64,000 bases of DNA from Halostella pelagica (GTDB lineage: Archaea > Halobacteriota > Halobacteria > Halobacteriales > Natronoarchaeaceae): assembly GCA_005954745.1 (NCBI GenBank), contig CP040679.1, positions 186,001 through 250,000 on the forward strand. Reading direction: 5' to 3'. A model generated the notes under the pieces. The model was not told where the DNA came from and ran no database searches. It saw only the letters and a program-made list of their open reading frames with translations. Every line of letters begins with the position of its first letter. The first letter of the stretch is position 1. Made by a program: the position numbers and the translations under genes. Below, piece by piece: positions 3,948 through 55,721 of the stretch.

Positions 3948-3979
3948 GTTCGGTGCCGGGGTTACAACAGACCCTATCA
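3948..3979 (-). repeat. Degenerate copy E of the ~85-bp palindromic element
   Basis: On the minus strand this reads TGATAGGGTCTGTTGTAAC and onwards, matching the conserved terminus of the better copies near 46.1, 47.4 and 55.7 kb. Its TGA is the stop codon of the nucleoside hydrolase. Only one end is recognisable, so this may be a decayed or partial copy. Confidence 0.5.
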
Positions 3980-4903
3980 GTATTTCGCGACCGAGTCGAG
4001 GAGGAGGTCGACGAACGCCTCGCGGTCGATGTCGACGCCGACGGACGCGTTCGGCTCGGCGTCGAGAACGCCGTACCGGTCGCAGACGGTACGGCCGAGT
4101 GTGTGTTCGCCGTCCGTCTCCACCGCGACGTGCATCGGCTCCGTTTCGATGACATCTCTGTCCATCACTTCTGCGACTGCACACGCGTCGTGGATGGGAA
4201 CGCCCTCCCAGCCGAACCGGTCCTCGTGGAACCGGAGGAAGAAGTCGAGCCACTCCGCGACGGTCTCACCGACATCGGAGCCGAGTTGCCGGAACCGGTC
4301 GAAGGTATCGGCGCGCACCCGCGCAGCGCGCGTCACGTCGAGGCCGATCATGGTGACGGGGACGTCAGACCGAAAGACGATGTCAGCGGCCTCCGGGTCG
4401 ACCAGGATGTTGTACTCTGCCGCCGGCGTGTAGTTCCCCGTTCCTACAGCTCCGCCCATCAACACTATCTCGTCGAGGTGTGATTCGACCTCAGGATGGC
4501 GTTTGAGCAGCATGCCGACGTTGGTGAGGGGGCCGGTCGGCACCAGCGTGACGCTCCCGGCCTGCTCGGCCGTCCTCGCGATGAGGTCGACGCCGTCCTC
4601 GTCGACTGTGTCGACCGTCGGTTCGGGGAGGTCGGGCCCGTCGAGGCCGGACTCGCCGTGGACGTCGTCCGCGACCATCAGGTCACGTACCATCGGTTCG
4701 GCCATGCCGCTCGCAACCGGAACGTCCGTGCGGTCCGCGAGTGTCAACACCTGTCTGGCGTTCTGCGTAGTCTTCGACAGCGTCTGGTTCCCCGCGACGG
4801 TCGTGATCGCGCGAACCGACAGTTCGGGCGCAGTCAGCGCGAGCAGCGTCGCGATCGCGTCATCGTGACCGGGATCGCAGTCCAGAATGATGTCCGTCGT
4901 CAT
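3977..4903 (-). CDS. Nucleoside hydrolase (inosine/uridine-preferring family)
   Basis: A 308-residue protein with the N-terminal calcium-binding motif DCDPGHDDAIA (residues 8-18) that defines nucleoside hydrolases. Further family features are VASGMAEPMVRDL, ETSVTLVPTGPLTNVG-like LVPTGPLTNVGMLL and the VLMGGAVGTGNYTPAAEYN block near residue 150, ending with HDACAVAEVMD, which supplies the late active-site histidine and aspartate. The enzyme cleaves the N-glycosidic bond of nucleosides to give a base and ribose. It fits with the nucleoside importer upstream and the purine-catabolic genes at the right end of the window. The stop codon coincides with the edge of a repeat element. Confidence 0.92.
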   Translation of the reverse strand: MTTDIILDCDPGHDDAIATLLALTAPELSVRAITTVAGNQTLSKTTQNARQVLTLADRTDVPVASGMAEPMVRDLMVADDVHGESGLDGPDLPEPTVDTVDEDGVDLIARTAEQAGSVTLVPTGPLTNVGMLLKRHPEVESHLDEIVLMGGAVGTGNYTPAAEYNILVDPEAADIVFRSDVPVTMIGLDVTRAARVRADTFDRFRQLGSDVGETVAEWLDFFLRFHEDRFGWEGVPIHDACAVAEVMDRDVIETEPMHVAVETDGEHTLGRTVCDRYGVLDAEPNASVGVDIDREAFVDLLLDSVAKY

Positions 4904-23263: not shown

Positions 23264-23296
23264 TGAAATACCGAACTGACGGACAACAGTCCCTAT
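23264..23296 (-). repeat. Partial copy A of the ~85-bp palindromic element
   Basis: On the minus strand it begins TGATAGGGACTGTTGTCC and continues through GTCAGTTCGGTATTT, matching copy D at nearly every position. The other half is absent. It lies in the gap between the convergent symporter and OCD-family genes. Confidence 0.7.
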
Positions 23297-23369
23297 CAAG
23301 GGAAAGCGGCGATTCGAACACACACCGCGTCTACCGTGCGACACCGTAGAGTTCATCGCCCGCACCGGA

Positions 23370-24341
23370 TCAGGTCGGCTGTGTGGTTCCGACTCCTTTC
23401 TCGCGGGCCGCTTCGTACACCTCTGTCGCCGCGGCGGCGTCGAGTACGGCAGTCCCCACGCTCTCGACTACGAGTATCTCGTCTCTCGATTCACGTCCTG
23501 TCGTCCCTTCGAACAGCGCCGCTATCGGGATGAGGTCGTCCGCCGCCAGATCGGTTGCGGCGAGATCGCCGATCGTCGTCACCTCCTCGGGGACGTCCGC
23601 GAACACTCGGGACGCGCGGTCGAAGACGGCTGGTTCGAGCTCCTGCATCTCTGCGTCGTACGCCCCGACTGCGATGACCACTGTCCCCGGTGAGAGCGCC
23701 GCGGCCGGGAAGACCGGCTCGGAACTGGTCGTCGCCGTGACGACGACGGACGCGTCGCGAACGGCCGCTGCGGGCGTGTCGACGGCGGTCGCCGAGATCC
23801 CGTGTTCGCGGAGGTCCGCGACGCAGTCGTGTTTCGAGTCGCTCGGCGAATAGACGGAGACGGACTCGATGTCAGTTAACGCGGCGATCGCCCGGGTCTG
23901 CCAGCGTGCCTGTGCGCCAGCGCCGATGACGCCGAGCGTAATGGGTTCGTTCGCGAGTTCGCGGGCGGCCAGCCCGCCGATACAGCCGGTCCGAGCGTTC
24001 GTGATTCGGGTACCGTCCATGAATGCGGCCGGCTGGCCCGTTCGCGCGTCTGAGAGAACGATCTGTGCGTGGAGCATCGGCAGCGAGCGCTTCTTGTTTC
24101 CGTCGTGGAGGCTGACCAGCTTCGTCGCAAAGTACTCCTCCGCGTGAATGTACGCCGGCATGACTAATCCGGTGCCGAGTGGTTCACTGGAGTCGAGGTC
24201 AGCGCCGATCGGGTAGTGCGGTCGCTCCGGGCGTTCGACCTCTCCCGAATGCTGTTTTTCGAGGGCGCGTTCGACGATCGGGGCGAGCGTCTCGATGTCG
24301 ATCAGTCGCTCGATCTCCGCGTCAGTGAGGAACAGACCCAT
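23370..24341 (-). CDS. Ornithine cyclodeaminase/mu-crystallin family reductase (probable 1-pyrroline-2-carboxylate reductase)
   Basis: A 323-residue protein beginning MGLFLTDAEIERLIDI, with the substrate segment ATKLVSLHDGNKKRSLP and a Rossmann motif LGVIGAGAQARWQTRAI near residue 130. The family holds ornithine cyclodeaminase, alanine dehydrogenase and ketimine reductases such as 1-pyrroline-2-carboxylate reductase (LhpI). Placed with a trans-3-hydroxyproline dehydratase and a proline symporter, the last activity is most likely: reduction of the dehydratase product to L-proline with NAD(P)H. The ATG at 24341 matches family N-termini; a longer form from 24383 is possible. Confidence 0.87.
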   Translation of the reverse strand: MGLFLTDAEIERLIDIETLAPIVERALEKQHSGEVERPERPHYPIGADLDSSEPLGTGLVMPAYIHAEEYFATKLVSLHDGNKKRSLPMLHAQIVLSDARTGQPAAFMDGTRITNARTGCIGGLAARELANEPITLGVIGAGAQARWQTRAIAALTDIESVSVYSPSDSKHDCVADLREHGISATAVDTPAAAVRDASVVVTATTSSEPVFPAAALSPGTVVIAVGAYDAEMQELEPAVFDRASRVFADVPEEVTTIGDLAATDLAADDLIPIAALFEGTTGRESRDEILVVESVGTAVLDAAAATEVYEAAREKGVGTTQPT

Positions 24342-25170
24342 GCGAGCACGTACGGGATCCGGGATGTTATGTGTTCCTGTCACGTTCCGGGAATACTCGG
24401 GAAATACGAAGACGGGATTCTGTGTTTCCTACGTGACTTCTAGCCGCAAACGCCCACCACGTCCACTCGTTTCACGATCCGATGTCGATATCGACGAGTG
24501 GGTGGTGACAGACGCAGATCGCGCCGAGGACATGTCGGCGACGTTCAACCGAACTGAGATGAAGGCGGTAGCTCTGGATTCGCACTGGTGATCGTCGACT
24601 GTTCAGCTCCGCATCAGAGAGTTCGGGTGTCCGGGGATACCGATGCAAAAATTGCTCTGTGGGGCCTAGCTATGGGAGGCTGCGCTGTACCCTTGTACTA
24701 CGTTCCAGCGGTTCGTTGGACTGTTCATGCAATGAGTTGCGACCCGTTACGTTTGGCGTATCCGTTTCTAGTGTTGATGTTGAAATCGTCTGGAACCATT
24801 CATAGCCCCAACCACGTTCGCCGTTGCCCGGATCAGATTGTACTTCTACAATCATTAACACGAAACTGGCACAACTACTGTCGACATCGCCACGGTTTTC
24901 GATCCGGCTCCATACTCGTCCGAGGACGCTTTGTGTTAGATAACCATATTGTAAAATCACCATTCGAACAAACCTGTTGGTATGATATATATTTGATGTG
25001 GAAGCACACCGCTCTTGGGCGTGCGAGCGAGAGAATATACTTGGGATCGCCTCTTTGTCTCAGACACCGCTCGCTGGACTCGGTTCGGGGAGTAAAAGCT
25101 GCCGTAGCGTTCGTTCAGAGCGTTCGAAAGCCGACCTTCCGGATCGAGACAACTGTTCCTGGCTCGCCCG
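24342..25170. other. Anomalous, AT-richer spacer of about 830 bases
   Basis: Base composition and the amino-acid content of all open frames (many Cys, Trp, Arg, His) differ from the acidic coding regions on both sides. I could not recognise a transposase or other fragment in six frames. A decayed mobile element or relic gene is possible. Confidence 0.45.
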
Positions 25171-44604: not shown

Positions 44605-44816
44605 GACCCGAAAACGGTCGGCCCAGAGGATAAGTGTGCCCCCGCCTGACCGTTCCACAGTCGCCACAGCCGTTTGGGACGCGTTTGGAGCGTGTGTCGC
44701 GTATCGGGTCGGTGATCGCTGCGTGCATGTCCTGCAAACGCCGGCTCACCGGCAGCGAACGGCGGAAGGGGATATTGTGCGGTGTTTTTTAGTAGTGGCC
44801 TTGCCTGATGTCCAGT

Positions 44817-46076
44817 ATGGCAATGGAGCATGTCACTACGTTAGAGTGCACTATTTGTGAGCGTGAGTACGACCCGGACCAGATCATCTACACGTGCCCC
44901 GAGCACGAGGGGGTGAAAGGCATCCTCGAAGTCAAATACGACTACGACGTCATCCACGACAACTTCGACGCAGAACTCGACGGGAAGATCCAGGGACAGT
45001 GGAAGTACGAGGCGTTCCTGCCGGTCGACGACGACGCGGAGGTCGTGACCCTCAACGAGGGAGGGACGGACCTGTTCGACGCGCCGAACCTGAGCGAGGC
45101 CCTCGGCGTCGAGACGCTCGTCAAGGACGACGGCCGTAACCCGACCGGCTGTTTCAAGGACCGCGCCAGTTCCGTCGCGGTGACGAAAGCGCGACACGCT
45201 GGCCGCGACATCATCACCTGCGCCTCGACTGGGAACGCGGCGGCCTCGCTCTCCGGCTACGCGGCCCGCGGCGGCCTCGACTGCCGTATCTTCGTCCCCG
45301 GCGCTGCGCCCGCGGGCAAACTCGCCCAGCCGCTCGTCTACGGCGCGGACGTGCTGGCGGTCAACGGCTCGTACGACGAGGCGTACGACTTGAGCGTCGA
45401 GGTCACTGACGAGTACGGCTGGTACAACCGCAACGCGGCGATCAACCCGTTCCAGGTAGAGGGGAAACGGACCGTCGGCCACGAACTCGCGGAGCAGTCG
45501 AAGGTCCGCGGGGAAGTCCCCGACTGGGTCGTCTTCTCGATGGGTGACGGCTGCACTATCGCCGGCGCGTGGAAGGGGTTCAAGGAGTTCTACGACCTCG
45601 ACTACGTCGACGACTACCCGAAGATGCTCGGCGTCCAGGCGGAGGGGGCCTCGGCCATCCACGACGCCTTCCAGGGTCACGACGACATCGACGACCTTGC
45701 CGACACGATCGCAGACAGCATCGCAGTCGGCCGGCCGCGTAACACGATCAAGGCTTGCCGCGCGCCACAGCAAAGCGGCGGGGACACCGTGCTCGTCTCC
45801 GACGAGGAGATCCTCGAAGCGGAGAAGCTTCTCGGCAGCACCGAGGGGATCTACTCCGAGCCCGCAGGCGCGACGCCAGTCGCCGGCGTTCGGGAGGCGC
45901 TGGAGCAGGGGATCATCGAGCAGGACGAGACTGTCGTCGTCGTCTCGACCGGGTTCGGCCTCAAAGACACCGAGAGCGCGAAGAAAGCCACCGGAGACGT
46001 AAACCGGATAGATCCCGAAATATCCGAGGTCGAGGCGCTGTTCGGCGACGCCGAGGCCGCGGCGGCCGACGACTGA
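44817..46076 (+). CDS. thrC: Threonine synthase
   Basis: A 419-residue fold-type II PLP enzyme. A short N-terminal zinc-ribbon-like part (LECTICEREYDPDQIIYTCP) precedes the PLP lysine in NPTGCFKDRASSVAV (near residue 115) and the phosphate loop CASTGNAAASLSGYAA. It converts O-phosphohomoserine to threonine. The ATG at 44817 is preferred since a TATA-like TTTTTTAG (44785-44792) is centred about 28 bases upstream; starts at 44808 and 44823 are alternatives in the same frame. The TGA stop is also the first three bases of repeat copy B. Confidence 0.92.
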   Translation: MAMEHVTTLECTICEREYDPDQIIYTCPEHEGVKGILEVKYDYDVIHDNFDAELDGKIQGQWKYEAFLPVDDDAEVVTLNEGGTDLFDAPNLSEALGVETLVKDDGRNPTGCFKDRASSVAVTKARHAGRDIITCASTGNAAASLSGYAARGGLDCRIFVPGAAPAGKLAQPLVYGADVLAVNGSYDEAYDLSVEVTDEYGWYNRNAAINPFQVEGKRTVGHELAEQSKVRGEVPDWVVFSMGDGCTIAGAWKGFKEFYDLDYVDDYPKMLGVQAEGASAIHDAFQGHDDIDDLADTIADSIAVGRPRNTIKACRAPQQSGGDTVLVSDEEILEAEKLLGSTEGIYSEPAGATPVAGVREALEQGIIEQDETVVVVSTGFGLKDTESAKKATGDVNRIDPEISEVEALFGDAEAAAADD

Positions 46077-46157
46077 TAGGGACTGCTGTCAGTCAGTTCG
46101 GTAGTTCGCCGACACGCGTGCCCGAACACCGTGACACAGTTACAGCGGTTCCTCTGA
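46074..46157 (+). repeat. Copy B of the ~85-bp palindromic element
   Basis: Begins TGATAGGGACTGCTGTC and ends with ACAGCGGTTCCTCTGA, so its two ends are imperfect inverted repeats. Its first TGA is the stop codon of the threonine synthase gene. Orientation is opposite to copy C, and the two flank the LLM oxidoreductase gene. Confidence 0.75.
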
Positions 46158-47335: not shown

Positions 47336-47420
47336 TCATAGGGGCTGCTGTAACTGTGTACCGGTATTCGCCGGCCGGAGGTTGCCGAACTACCGAACTG
47401 GCTGACAGCAGTCCCTATCA
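47336..47420 (-). repeat. Copy C of the ~85-bp palindromic element
   Basis: Best-preserved copy. The plus strand begins TCATAGGGGCTGCTGT and ends ACAGCAGTCCCTATCA, giving 16-bp terminal inverted repeats with two mismatches. On the minus strand the interior reads CAGTTCGGTAGTTCGG then CCGGCGAATACCGGTACAC. It sits directly upstream of the LLM gene promoter. Confidence 0.8.
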
Positions 47421-52653: not shown

Positions 52654-53199
52654 GTGGAAATCAAACTAACTATCAACGACGAATCGAAGACCGTGGAGGT
52701 TGAACCGGACGACGACCTGGCTACGGTACTGCGACAGAACGGCTACACGGGCGTGAAGTGTGGCTGTGACAGCGGCGTCTGCGGCGCATCGAAGGTGTTC
52801 GTCGACGACGAGGTGAAGATGGCCTGCGGCGTGGACGCTCCGAACGCGGATGGGTCCGAGATCCGGACTATCGAGGCGCTCGGGACCCAGGACGACCTCC
52901 ACCCGATCCAGGAGGCGTTCGTCGACCACTTCGCCGTCCAGTGCGGGTTCTGCATTCCGGGCATGATAATCGAGGCCGAGTCGCTGCTCGCGGACACCCC
53001 CGACCCGAGCGAGGCCGAGGTGCGCGAAGCCATCGACGACAACCTCTGTCGGTGTACCGGCTACCAGAAACCCGTCGAGGCGATCCTCGACGCGGCCGAC
53101 CGAATGCGCGGCGAGCAGTCGGTCGCGGCCGACGGCGGGTCGCAGATCCGTCCGGACCAGGCCGACTGTACCGACCACGACGGTGATACCAATGAGTGA
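52654..53199 (+). CDS. Molybdenum hydroxylase, 2x[2Fe-2S] small subunit (copy 1)
   Basis: A 181-residue iron-sulfur subunit of the xanthine dehydrogenase family. The C-terminal [2Fe-2S] site is intact (QCGFC, residues 96-100, and CRC, residues 132-134). The N-terminal plant-type site reads KCGCDSGVCGASKV: Cys38, Cys43 and Cys58 are present but the third ligand position 46 is serine; an extra Cys36 lies nearby. Start is GTG at 52654, with GGAGG seven bases upstream. It overlaps the large-subunit gene by eight bases. A C-terminal extension of about 35 acidic residues follows the last cluster. Confidence 0.92.
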   Translation: MEIKLTINDESKTVEVEPDDDLATVLRQNGYTGVKCGCDSGVCGASKVFVDDEVKMACGVDAPNADGSEIRTIEALGTQDDLHPIQEAFVDHFAVQCGFCIPGMIIEAESLLADTPDPSEAEVREAIDDNLCRCTGYQKPVEAILDAADRMRGEQSVAADGGSQIRPDQADCTDHDGDTNE

Positions 53200-55639
53200 C
53201 GAACCGACCGACCCACAGACTGACGGCGGGACCGCGTCGAAGCCGACCTCCGAGGAGCCGACGGAGTTCGAGGAACACCCCCTCGAATGGGACGAACCGG
53301 AGAACAACAACAAAGCGCCGGGGGAGCGAGACAGCGTCTCCCAGCCGGCGGAGAAGTTCGACGACCGAAAGCTCGTCACCGGCCAGGCCAAATACACCGC
53401 CGACTACGAGGAGCGCTTCCCGGATCTCGCTCACGCCGCCGTCGTTCGCAGCGAGGTCCCGCACGGCCGCGTTACGGCCATCGACACAGACGAGGCAGCG
53501 GCGATGGACGGCGTCCACGCCGTCCTCACGCCCTCGTCCGACGCGGTCCCGGACGCGAAGTACACGAGCGCCGGCCAGTCGTATCCGGAGCCGAGCCCGT
53601 GGGACATGAACGTGCTCAACGAGCACGTCCGCTACGTCGGCGACCCCGTTGCGGCGGTCGCGGCTGAGGACGCGGACACCGCGGCGGAGGCGGTCGACGC
53701 CATCGATGTCGAGTACGAGGAGTACGACCACGTCGTCGACCCCGAGGCGGCGTTCGACGAGGACGCTCCGCAGTTGTTCGGCGAGGACGAGGTCGAAAAC
53801 GAGATCGTCGGTCACGATTACGACCGCAACCGGATGTCCAACATCGAGGGCGAGATCGGCGACGTCGACGGCTCGCTCGACCGCGACGACGTACACGTCC
53901 ACGAGACCGAGTGGGAGACGATCCGCCAGTCCCACGCCCAGGTCGAGAAGCACACGTCGCTCGCTTACACCGACGAGGACGACCGCCAGGTGCTCATCAC
54001 GAGTACGCAGGTGCCGAACCACACTCGCCGCCAGTTGGCGCACCTGTTCGACATTCCGATCCGCGACATCCGCGTGAAGAAACCCCGCGTCGGCGGCGGG
54101 TTCGGCGGGAAGCAGGCGATGGTCGTCGAACCGATCCCGCTCGCGCTGTCGCTCGCGGCCGACCGCCCCGTCATCTACGAGGCGTCCCGGGACGAGGAGT
54201 TCTACGCGATGCGCTCGCGTCACCCGATGCAGGTCCGGGCGCGGACCGCGGTCACCGACGACGGACGAATCGAAGCTATCGACCTCTACGCGCTCTCGAA
54301 CACCGGGGCGTACGGAAGCCACGGCATGACGGTCGCCGGTAACGTCGGCAGCAAGCCGATGCCGCTGTACTCGAAGGTGCCGAACGCCCGCTTCGAGGCC
54401 GACATCGTACACACGAACACGCCTCAGACCGGGGCGATGCGCGGCTACGGCGCGCCCCAGGGCACGCTCGCGCTCGAAGGGCATCTGGACGAGGTCGCGC
54501 GGGACCTCGATCTTGACCCCATCGAGTTCCGTCAGGACCACTACATGGAAGTCGGTGACTTGGACGAGATCGCCGGCATGATGGGCGGCGAAGGCGCGGA
54601 GCGTCGGATTCGCTCGTGCGGGCTCGACGAGTGCGTCGAGCGCGGGAAGGAGGCCATCGGCTGGGACGACCTCGAACAGCCGGACGAGGACCACCTGCAC
54701 CGGGGGATCGGCATGGCGCTTTCAGCACAGGGGACTGGCGTCGCCGGCGACGAACTCGGCGCGGCGCAGATCATGATGAACGAGGACGGCTCGTTCCACC
54801 TGCAGGTCGGCGGCGTCGACATCGGCACGGGCGCGGATACCGCGTTCATCCAGATCGCCGCGGAGGTGCTCGGTTGCGACGAAAACGACATCATCGTCAA
54901 GTCTTCGGACACCGACAACACGCCGTTTGACTACGGCGCGTACGCCTCCTCGACGACGTACATCAGCGGCATGGCCGTGAAGAAGGCCGCCGAGGACGCC
55001 AAGGAGCGAATCCTCGACTGGGCGTCGCGGATGCTCGACGAGTCCGTCGAGAACCTGGAGACGCGTGACGGCGAAGTAGTGAGCGAAGAGAGTGGCGACT
55101 CGGTCACGCTCGAAGACATCGGCTACGAGTCGGTGTACGGGCACGACGACCGCGAGCACATCCTCGGCAAGGGGACGCACTCCACGGAGGAAAGCCCGCC
55201 GCCGTTCGCCGCACAGTTCGTCGACGTCACCGTTGACGAGGAGACCGGGGAGTTCGAGGTCAACGAGTTAGTCGTCGCCGTCGACTGCGGCGTGGCGATA
55301 AACCCCGGCATGGCGGAGGGACAGGTCGAAGGAGCCAATCACATGAGCTACGAGATGGCCGTCAGCGAGGGGGTCACCGTCGACGAGCGGGGCCGCGCCG
55401 AGGTTTCCGACTTCGACGAGTACGGACTCCCGTCGGCGACGGAGACGCCGCCCATCGAGAGCATCCTCGTCGAGACGCACGAACCGACGGGTCCGTTCGG
55501 CGCGAAATCGGTCGCGGAGGTGCCGACGAACACGGTACCGCCGGCGCTTAGCAACGCGATCCGCGAGGCTGTCGGCGTGCGTATCAACGAGATGCCGGTC
55601 ACCGCTGAGAAGATCAAGGCGGCGCTCGACGGCAACTGA
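53192..55639 (+). CDS. Molybdenum hydroxylase large subunit (copy 1)
   Basis: An 815-residue molybdopterin subunit of the xanthine dehydrogenase/aldehyde oxidase family. After an acidic extension of about 60 residues comes the a/b hammerhead domain (KLVTGQAKYTADY). Cofactor motifs are VGGGFGGKQAM, GAMRGYGAPQG and VDIGTGADT, where the Gln of the usual GQG is Thr. The catalytic glutamate is in GPFGAKSVAEVP near the C-terminus. No FAD subunit gene is adjacent. Substrate could be a purine or another heterocycle or aldehyde. Its TGA stop is the edge of repeat copy D. Confidence 0.92.
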   Translation: MSDEPTDPQTDGGTASKPTSEEPTEFEEHPLEWDEPENNNKAPGERDSVSQPAEKFDDRKLVTGQAKYTADYEERFPDLAHAAVVRSEVPHGRVTAIDTDEAAAMDGVHAVLTPSSDAVPDAKYTSAGQSYPEPSPWDMNVLNEHVRYVGDPVAAVAAEDADTAAEAVDAIDVEYEEYDHVVDPEAAFDEDAPQLFGEDEVENEIVGHDYDRNRMSNIEGEIGDVDGSLDRDDVHVHETEWETIRQSHAQVEKHTSLAYTDEDDRQVLITSTQVPNHTRRQLAHLFDIPIRDIRVKKPRVGGGFGGKQAMVVEPIPLALSLAADRPVIYEASRDEEFYAMRSRHPMQVRARTAVTDDGRIEAIDLYALSNTGAYGSHGMTVAGNVGSKPMPLYSKVPNARFEADIVHTNTPQTGAMRGYGAPQGTLALEGHLDEVARDLDLDPIEFRQDHYMEVGDLDEIAGMMGGEGAERRIRSCGLDECVERGKEAIGWDDLEQPDEDHLHRGIGMALSAQGTGVAGDELGAAQIMMNEDGSFHLQVGGVDIGTGADTAFIQIAAEVLGCDENDIIVKSSDTDNTPFDYGAYASSTTYISGMAVKKAAEDAKERILDWASRMLDESVENLETRDGEVVSEESGDSVTLEDIGYESVYGHDDREHILGKGTHSTEESPPPFAAQFVDVTVDEETGEFEVNELVVAVDCGVAINPGMAEGQVEGANHMSYEMAVSEGVTVDERGRAEVSDFDEYGLPSATETPPIESILVETHEPTGPFGAKSVAEVPTNTVPPALSNAIREAVGVRINEMPVTAEKIKAALDGN

Positions 55640-55721
55640 TAGGGACTGTTGTCCGTCGGTTCGGTATTTCGTCGACCCCGCGTCGGCGAATACCGGTACA
55701 TAGGGACAACGGTCTCTCTGA
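55637..55721 (+). repeat. Copy D of the ~85-bp palindromic element
   Basis: Begins TGATAGGGACTGTTGTCC, its TGA being the stop codon of the large-subunit gene, and ends GACAACGGTCTCTCTGA. The interior TTCGGTATTTCGTCGAC and CGGCGAATACCGGTACA align with copies B and C. Confidence 0.75.

Follow-up and report, generated by a model that had tools for sequence, protein, structure and literature searches.

Transposons of the IS5 family of the IS1031 type recognise a TNA target and duplicate 3 bp on insertion. In Haloquadratum walsbyi, the small mobile repeats SMR-A and SMR-B are 80–110 bp long, carry inverted repeats unrelated to known transposons and encode no transposase, and the authors who described them called their mobilisation enigmatic; they are reported to insert without duplicating the target, and SMR-A targets IS605-type transposons, palindromes and PATEs (PMC3119063). 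In GTAG REPs, it is often the terminus that contributes the TAG stop codon of adjacent open reading frames (PMC3733652). A limited literature search found no haloarchaeal element that targets stop codons, an absence that is itself weak evidence.

The family reported here resembles each of these systems in part. Like the SMRs, it is haloarchaeal, of similar size and bounded by terminal repeats without known-transposon kin, and neither a transposase nor a parent or mobiliser was found in the sampled genomes; unlike the SMRs as published, it has stop codons as its target and makes a duplication of T(G/C)A. It shares with GTAG-class REPs and REPINs, the systems with TnpA-REP, the character of short palindromes near gene ends without a long parent (PMC3733652, PMC8266576, PMC3116915). 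However, the stop of the GTAG REPs comes with the element, whereas here it is a pre-existing host codon that is duplicated. Moreover, the present family differs from REPs and REPINs in having a symmetric target, a single 79-bp foldback and a 3-bp duplication. Its ends read TA(G/C)NG...; REPs and REPINs are marked by a GTAG or CGTC foot and an associated TnpA-REP gene. Prokaryotic MITEs are likewise short and non-coding, with terminal inverted repeats, a fixed-length duplication, empty sites and many dispersed copies, but the sampled genomes yielded no parent transposon whose ends match those of this family, and its commonest target is the stop codon. IS1031-type transposons share the T-N-A target with 3-bp duplication; their terminal repeats do not match and no such transposase with these ends was found, and they serve as a lead only.

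The window analysed is a stretch of 64,000 nucleotides at positions 186001-250000 of contig C2, within the 3.94-Mb genome of the haloarchaeon Halostella pelagica. It contains five copies or remnants of the element, three of them on stop codons, and the host genes concerned:

3964..3979, minus strand: degenerate remnant with a single terminal repeat, at the nucleoside hydrolase stop
3977..4903, minus strand: nucleoside hydrolase gene, 308 aa, IU nucleoside hydrolase (Pfam); its stop is the target triplet
23265..23298, minus strand: intergenic half copy that comprises just the left end; the 3' end of 23370-24383(-) is 72 bp away
44808..46076, plus strand: threonine synthase-like PLP enzyme gene, 422 aa, PALP fold (Pfam); its stop is the target triplet
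46074..46157, plus strand: full copy at the threonine synthase-like stop; duplicated TGA at 46074-46076 and 46155-46157
47336..47420, minus strand: full copy, intergenic and off-stop, the nearest 3' end lying about 110 bp away; TCA on both sides (plus strand)
53183..55639, plus strand: molybdopterin cofactor-binding hydroxylase large subunit gene, 818 aa (Pfam); its stop is the target triplet
55637..55721, plus strand: full copy at the stop of the molybdopterin hydroxylase large subunit; duplicated TGA at 55637-55639 (the host stop) and 55719-55721; hairpin fold with z −4.4
55640-55718, plus strand: core of the copy 55637..55721

When up to 3 mismatches were allowed, the window contained 6 matches to the terminal motif TGATAGGGACTGYTGT, where 0.32 would be expected. 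Over 34 bp, the half copy 23265-23298 was 97% identical to the copy at 55637. Nothing in the window scored above the Rfam gathering score. An earlier note on this DNA had placed a TGA serving as in-frame stop at 46074-46076, 55637-55639 and 3979-3977(-), the context being ACTGATAGGG in all three cases, and both the stops and this context were confirmed in the corresponding open reading frames. The same note had counted three of three gene-adjacent ends at stops. This holds for the sites that it named, but not as a rule for the window, where the copies 47336-47420 and 23265-23298 are intergenic.

The element consists of a core of about 79 bp, or 85 bp with both outer triplets, and a covariance model recovered 79 distinct copies in the genome. 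Intact copies read TGA-TAGGGACTGTTGTA...TACAACAGTCCCTA-TGA, or TCA...TCA when the element is reversed, with terminal inverted repeats of 15–16 bp (TAGGGACTGTTGTA in the Halostella pelagica genome). The interior is asymmetric: one end runs on as GTCAGTTCGG, whereas the other, read inwards, is ACTGTGTACCGG. Because the left and right interiors differ, the copies have an orientation, and at stops 28 copies lay one way and 20 the other way relative to the gene. In the predicted fold, an outer stem of 15–16 bp is separated by an asymmetric internal loop from an inner hairpin; z scores ranged from −4.4 to −12.4 in eight copies. Across 29 diverse copies, 93.6% of the cells in the arms were paired, with 81 double changes, far exceeding both shuffled and slid controls. 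The core is too short to encode a transposase. The family consists of non-autonomous, mobile fold-back elements (MITEs or 'small mobile repeats').

Several variants of this architecture were observed. A 28-bp deletion derivative, in which the two ends and the duplication are retained (TGAGAGGGACTGCTGTAAGTCACTATGA), lies at a gene stop at L181 ~2599 (G000:C1:1110098). In Halomicrobium mukohataei (G102), the loci L287, L302 and L292 contain head-to-tail arrays, in which the T(G/C)A duplication of one element is the target of the next, the triplets being shared. At G000:C1:2656027-2656109 and 2415953-2416036, the gene stop is TAG, the first element codon past the triplet (TCA-TAG and AGA-TAG). 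The element can itself supply a stop codon, as these two genes show.

The outer triplets of intact copies agree as TGA/TGA or TCA/TCA, which is a direct and not an inverted repeat. The triplets were concordant in 42 of the 45 copies in G171, a congener of Halomicrobium mukohataei, and the 3-bp duplication was found in 32 of 41 copies sampled from other genomes. In some copies the far triplet has decayed (to CGA or TAA), and the triplet on the gene side is still a stop. Furthermore, 24 orthologous gene ends in four congeneric species had the same stop codon, in a single copy, and none was occupied. The threonine synthase gene of a congener (L164, L159), for example, is empty and reads GACGAC-TGA-CCGCGGCGCCGACGAGCCGACG, which aligns with CGGCTGCGCCGACGAACCGACG past the second TGA here.

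The cleanest test of empty sites came from close relatives within a lineage of recent activity. The flanks of nine copies specific to G171 were joined around one TGA and searched in G102 and in the genome G062. Eight of the nine joined flanks matched G102 contiguously over 261–263 of 263 bases at 93–99% identity, with a single TGA at the junction in all eight, five of them at stops; the ninth (L353, at a stop) matched contiguously in G062. The family thus includes young insertions that are present or absent between close relatives. The TGA, which the earlier note had taken as the first three bases of the element, is not element sequence; it is the host's own codon, the target duplicated on insertion.

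Two other repeats were noticed in the flanks. The L353 flank in G171 (query bases 1169-1255) contains another palindromic repeat, about 86 bp long (CTATAGTAACAATTGAAA...TTTCAATGGCTACTATAG), and G102 and G062 each hold over 10 copies that resemble it closely; the L353 element, at its gene stop, lies inside it. In the L342 and L370 flanks of G171 and at L385 and L381 of G102, a short palindrome TACTGCCGGCAGT stands directly 3' of the TGA stop of unrelated genes and is possibly another stop-associated repeat.

Genome-wide, the copies did not lie at random distances from stop codons, since the duplicated triplet fell exactly on a called in-frame stop (offset 0) in 48 of the 79 copies in the Halostella pelagica genome. 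None of the 165 copies inspected was inside a gene. The null consisted of those T(G/C)A sites where insertion is survivable (stops and non-coding DNA), weighted by flanking preference, and gave an expected stop fraction of 8% without context, 10–13% with the neighbouring base and up to 19% with three bases. Against it the observed fraction had a p value of 1e-16 or lower, with a roughly 3–5-fold excess at stops. Convergent gene pairs were chosen as a setting in which promoters cannot interfere, and in such intergenic regions alone 18 of 23 copies were at stops, compared with 20% expected. In 28 further genomes, 24 of 41 sampled copies were at stops. Genes were called with a simple codon model for which the window served as training data; in a check against RefSeq on pHmuk01 (NC_013201.1), a GH2 gene ends at 4681(-), and the copy 4599-4683 has the stop codon of this gene, 4683-4681, as its outer triplet. 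The preference for stop codons is real and general. The earlier note had judged the association with stops unlikely by chance; this observation was right, yet understated, the genome-wide p value being ~1e-16 even against the most permissive null.

The excess is already present in fresh insertions. G102 and G171 each hold tens of copies with 77–79 of 79 identical bases, and of these youngest copies 12 of 22 in G102 and 12 of 25 in G171 were at stops, the two samples having some insertions in common. When the copies of the Halostella pelagica genome were ranked by preservation, the best 20 were at stops in 9 cases, compared with 31 of the next 40 (p 0.02).

The occupied sites define a symmetric target, [GC][AT]C-T(G/C)A-G[AT][GC], in which insertion at T(G/C)A duplicates 3 bp, and the non-stop copies alone gave the same symmetric motif. 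The base before TGA was C in 83% of occupied stops and in 53% of unoccupied ones (p 0.0005), and the base after it was G in 58% versus 26% (p 0.0002). However, the stop excess was larger than this motif predicts: a symmetric matrix built from non-stop copies raised the expected stop fraction only to 12–19%, and a longer target motif was therefore rejected as the full cause of the excess. The proposal of the earlier note that insertion targets stop codons is supported, with the correction that for about 40% of the copies this 3-bp target lies between genes.

The best explanation as a whole, which we consider very probable, is a mobile fold-back element with a symmetric, duplicated target, over-occupation of stops and an inferred DDE enzyme acting in trans. 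A dimeric DDE-type transposase would cut and join double-stranded DNA; this enzyme type is suggested by a target with two-fold symmetry, a duplication fixed at 3 bp and an orientation that is free. Where the target is a TGA stop, the first duplicate remains the stop codon and the protein is unchanged. Insertions into coding regions would be purged, while those at stop codons would be harmless. Part of the stop excess is attributed to the fit of typical haloarchaeal gene ends (GAC-TGA-G) to the target, which they match well because haloarchaeal genes often end in GAC-TGA. The rest would most likely reflect a preference for gene ends at the insertion step, because the excess is already seen in fresh copies. 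A further proposal, which we hold tentatively and regard as rather unlikely, is that a host-encoded or domesticated enzyme finds the gene ends themselves and moves an order-wide family of orphan foldback elements. Such an enzyme would respond to a cue present only at gene ends, for instance a paused or terminating RNA polymerase, or a terminating ribosome where transcription and translation are coupled.

Selection alone could also place elements at stops, if any TSA target were hit, insertions into genes, promoters and terminators were lost, and the stop were the least harmful site. This explanation is possible, although we doubt it. It accounts for the lack of copies within genes and for the lower share at stops among the 20 best-preserved copies of the Halostella pelagica genome than among its older ones. 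However, sites 10–30 bp beyond the stop should then be equally harmless, and the excess in convergent gaps (18/23 vs. 20% expected) occurs where no promoter is at risk. Moreover, since about half of the fresh copies are already on stops (12/22 and 12/25 of the near-identical ones), a preference at the insertion step is favoured over slow selection. Some selective retention may add to the excess, because the best-preserved 20 copies are less often at stops.

A mechanism of the REPIN kind, in which a domesticated Y1/HUH enzyme with cleavage on the 3' side of TGA moves a single-stranded hairpin, would make the second TGA the element's own. The foldback preserved by compensatory change and the distinct left and right subterminal sequences are compatible with it, as is the lack of a long element with the same ends, which also holds for REPs with their TnpA-REP; a 3-bp duplication and a cleavage motif cannot be told apart from empty sites alone. 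The target, however, has its centre of symmetry at T(G/C)A, where C at −1 and G at +1 show equal enrichment. Neither orientation is clearly the commoner, their use being about equal, and the element forms one long foldback and not two separate end hairpins. We therefore consider such a mechanism improbable.

The earlier note had offered, as its other reading, a conserved 3'-end signal (a terminator or mRNA-stability hairpin) beginning at the stop. The stable hairpins, the co-varying arms and the frequent position directly after stops would suit such a signal, but terminal repeats that fit their enzyme should co-vary just as well. A conserved signal should not be missing from all 24 orthologous gene ends, nor should its orientation be free (28:20), nor should about 40% of the copies lie off stops; the 3-bp duplication, the exact empty sites and the polymorphism of young insertions also speak against it. 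No significant terminator-like signal was detected, with 1 found against 0.7 expected. A 3'-end signal is thus contradicted as the origin of the element and very improbable, although later use as a 3' UTR hairpin may occur in single genes. Chance or a gene-calling artefact, for which the simple codon model speaks, can practically be dismissed in view of the p value of 1e-16 or lower, the replication in other genomes, the agreeing RefSeq annotation in one case and the orthologous genes that end at the same codon.

The mobile fold-back family is order-wide. A second model, built on diverse copies, found it in 43 of 117 sampled genomes, and the terminal repeats vary by lineage (TAGTGTTTATTGTAAG, TACGGTTTGCTGTAAG, TACCGTCGGTCGTA and others) while the arms within a copy stay complementary. 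A parent element was sought as pairs of terminal repeats 0.4–4 kb apart in fetched regions of the Halostella pelagica genome, in G102, G171, named genomes, viral contigs and individual loci. No longer element or transposase with the same ends was found in the sampled genomes, G171 and the viral contigs being covered in part. In G102, nearly all exact ends paired at 85 bp. The loci examined contained no long TSA-flanked inverted-repeat pair, the DDE_Tnp_1 loci of the genus lacked these terminal repeats, and inspection by eye of the open reading frames between adjacent copies in G171 and G102 revealed no transposase. One pair of terminal repeats 1.39 kb apart (L178) was considered as a parent and rejected, as it proved to be an ordinary copy interrupted by a different element whose ends are IS6-like. 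That 1.3-kb insertion (L178 429-1738; G000:C1:1484428-1485737) is bounded by GCCTCTGTTGAAA...GGTTTCAACAGAGCC with an 8-bp duplication, AAATGACT, and contains an open reading frame for a 142-aa HTH-like protein and a small membrane-like one, but no transposase.

The family raises two testable questions: what enzyme mobilises elements for which no longer relative shares the ends, and how a DNA-joining reaction comes to prefer stop codons. If an enzyme that finds gene ends does operate, the stop codon would be a safe harbour chosen at the insertion step, where the TGA is copied and the gene left untouched. An integrase that prefers stops would be a useful tool for tagging the 3' ends of genes in haloarchaea. 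Each copy of this kind adds a hairpin of 85 nt to a 3' UTR, and annotation should treat it as mobile DNA and not as a terminator. With hundreds of copies across a whole archaeal order, the family provides a clean example of a prokaryotic mobile element that uses stop codons as insertion sites and leaves the gene undamaged.
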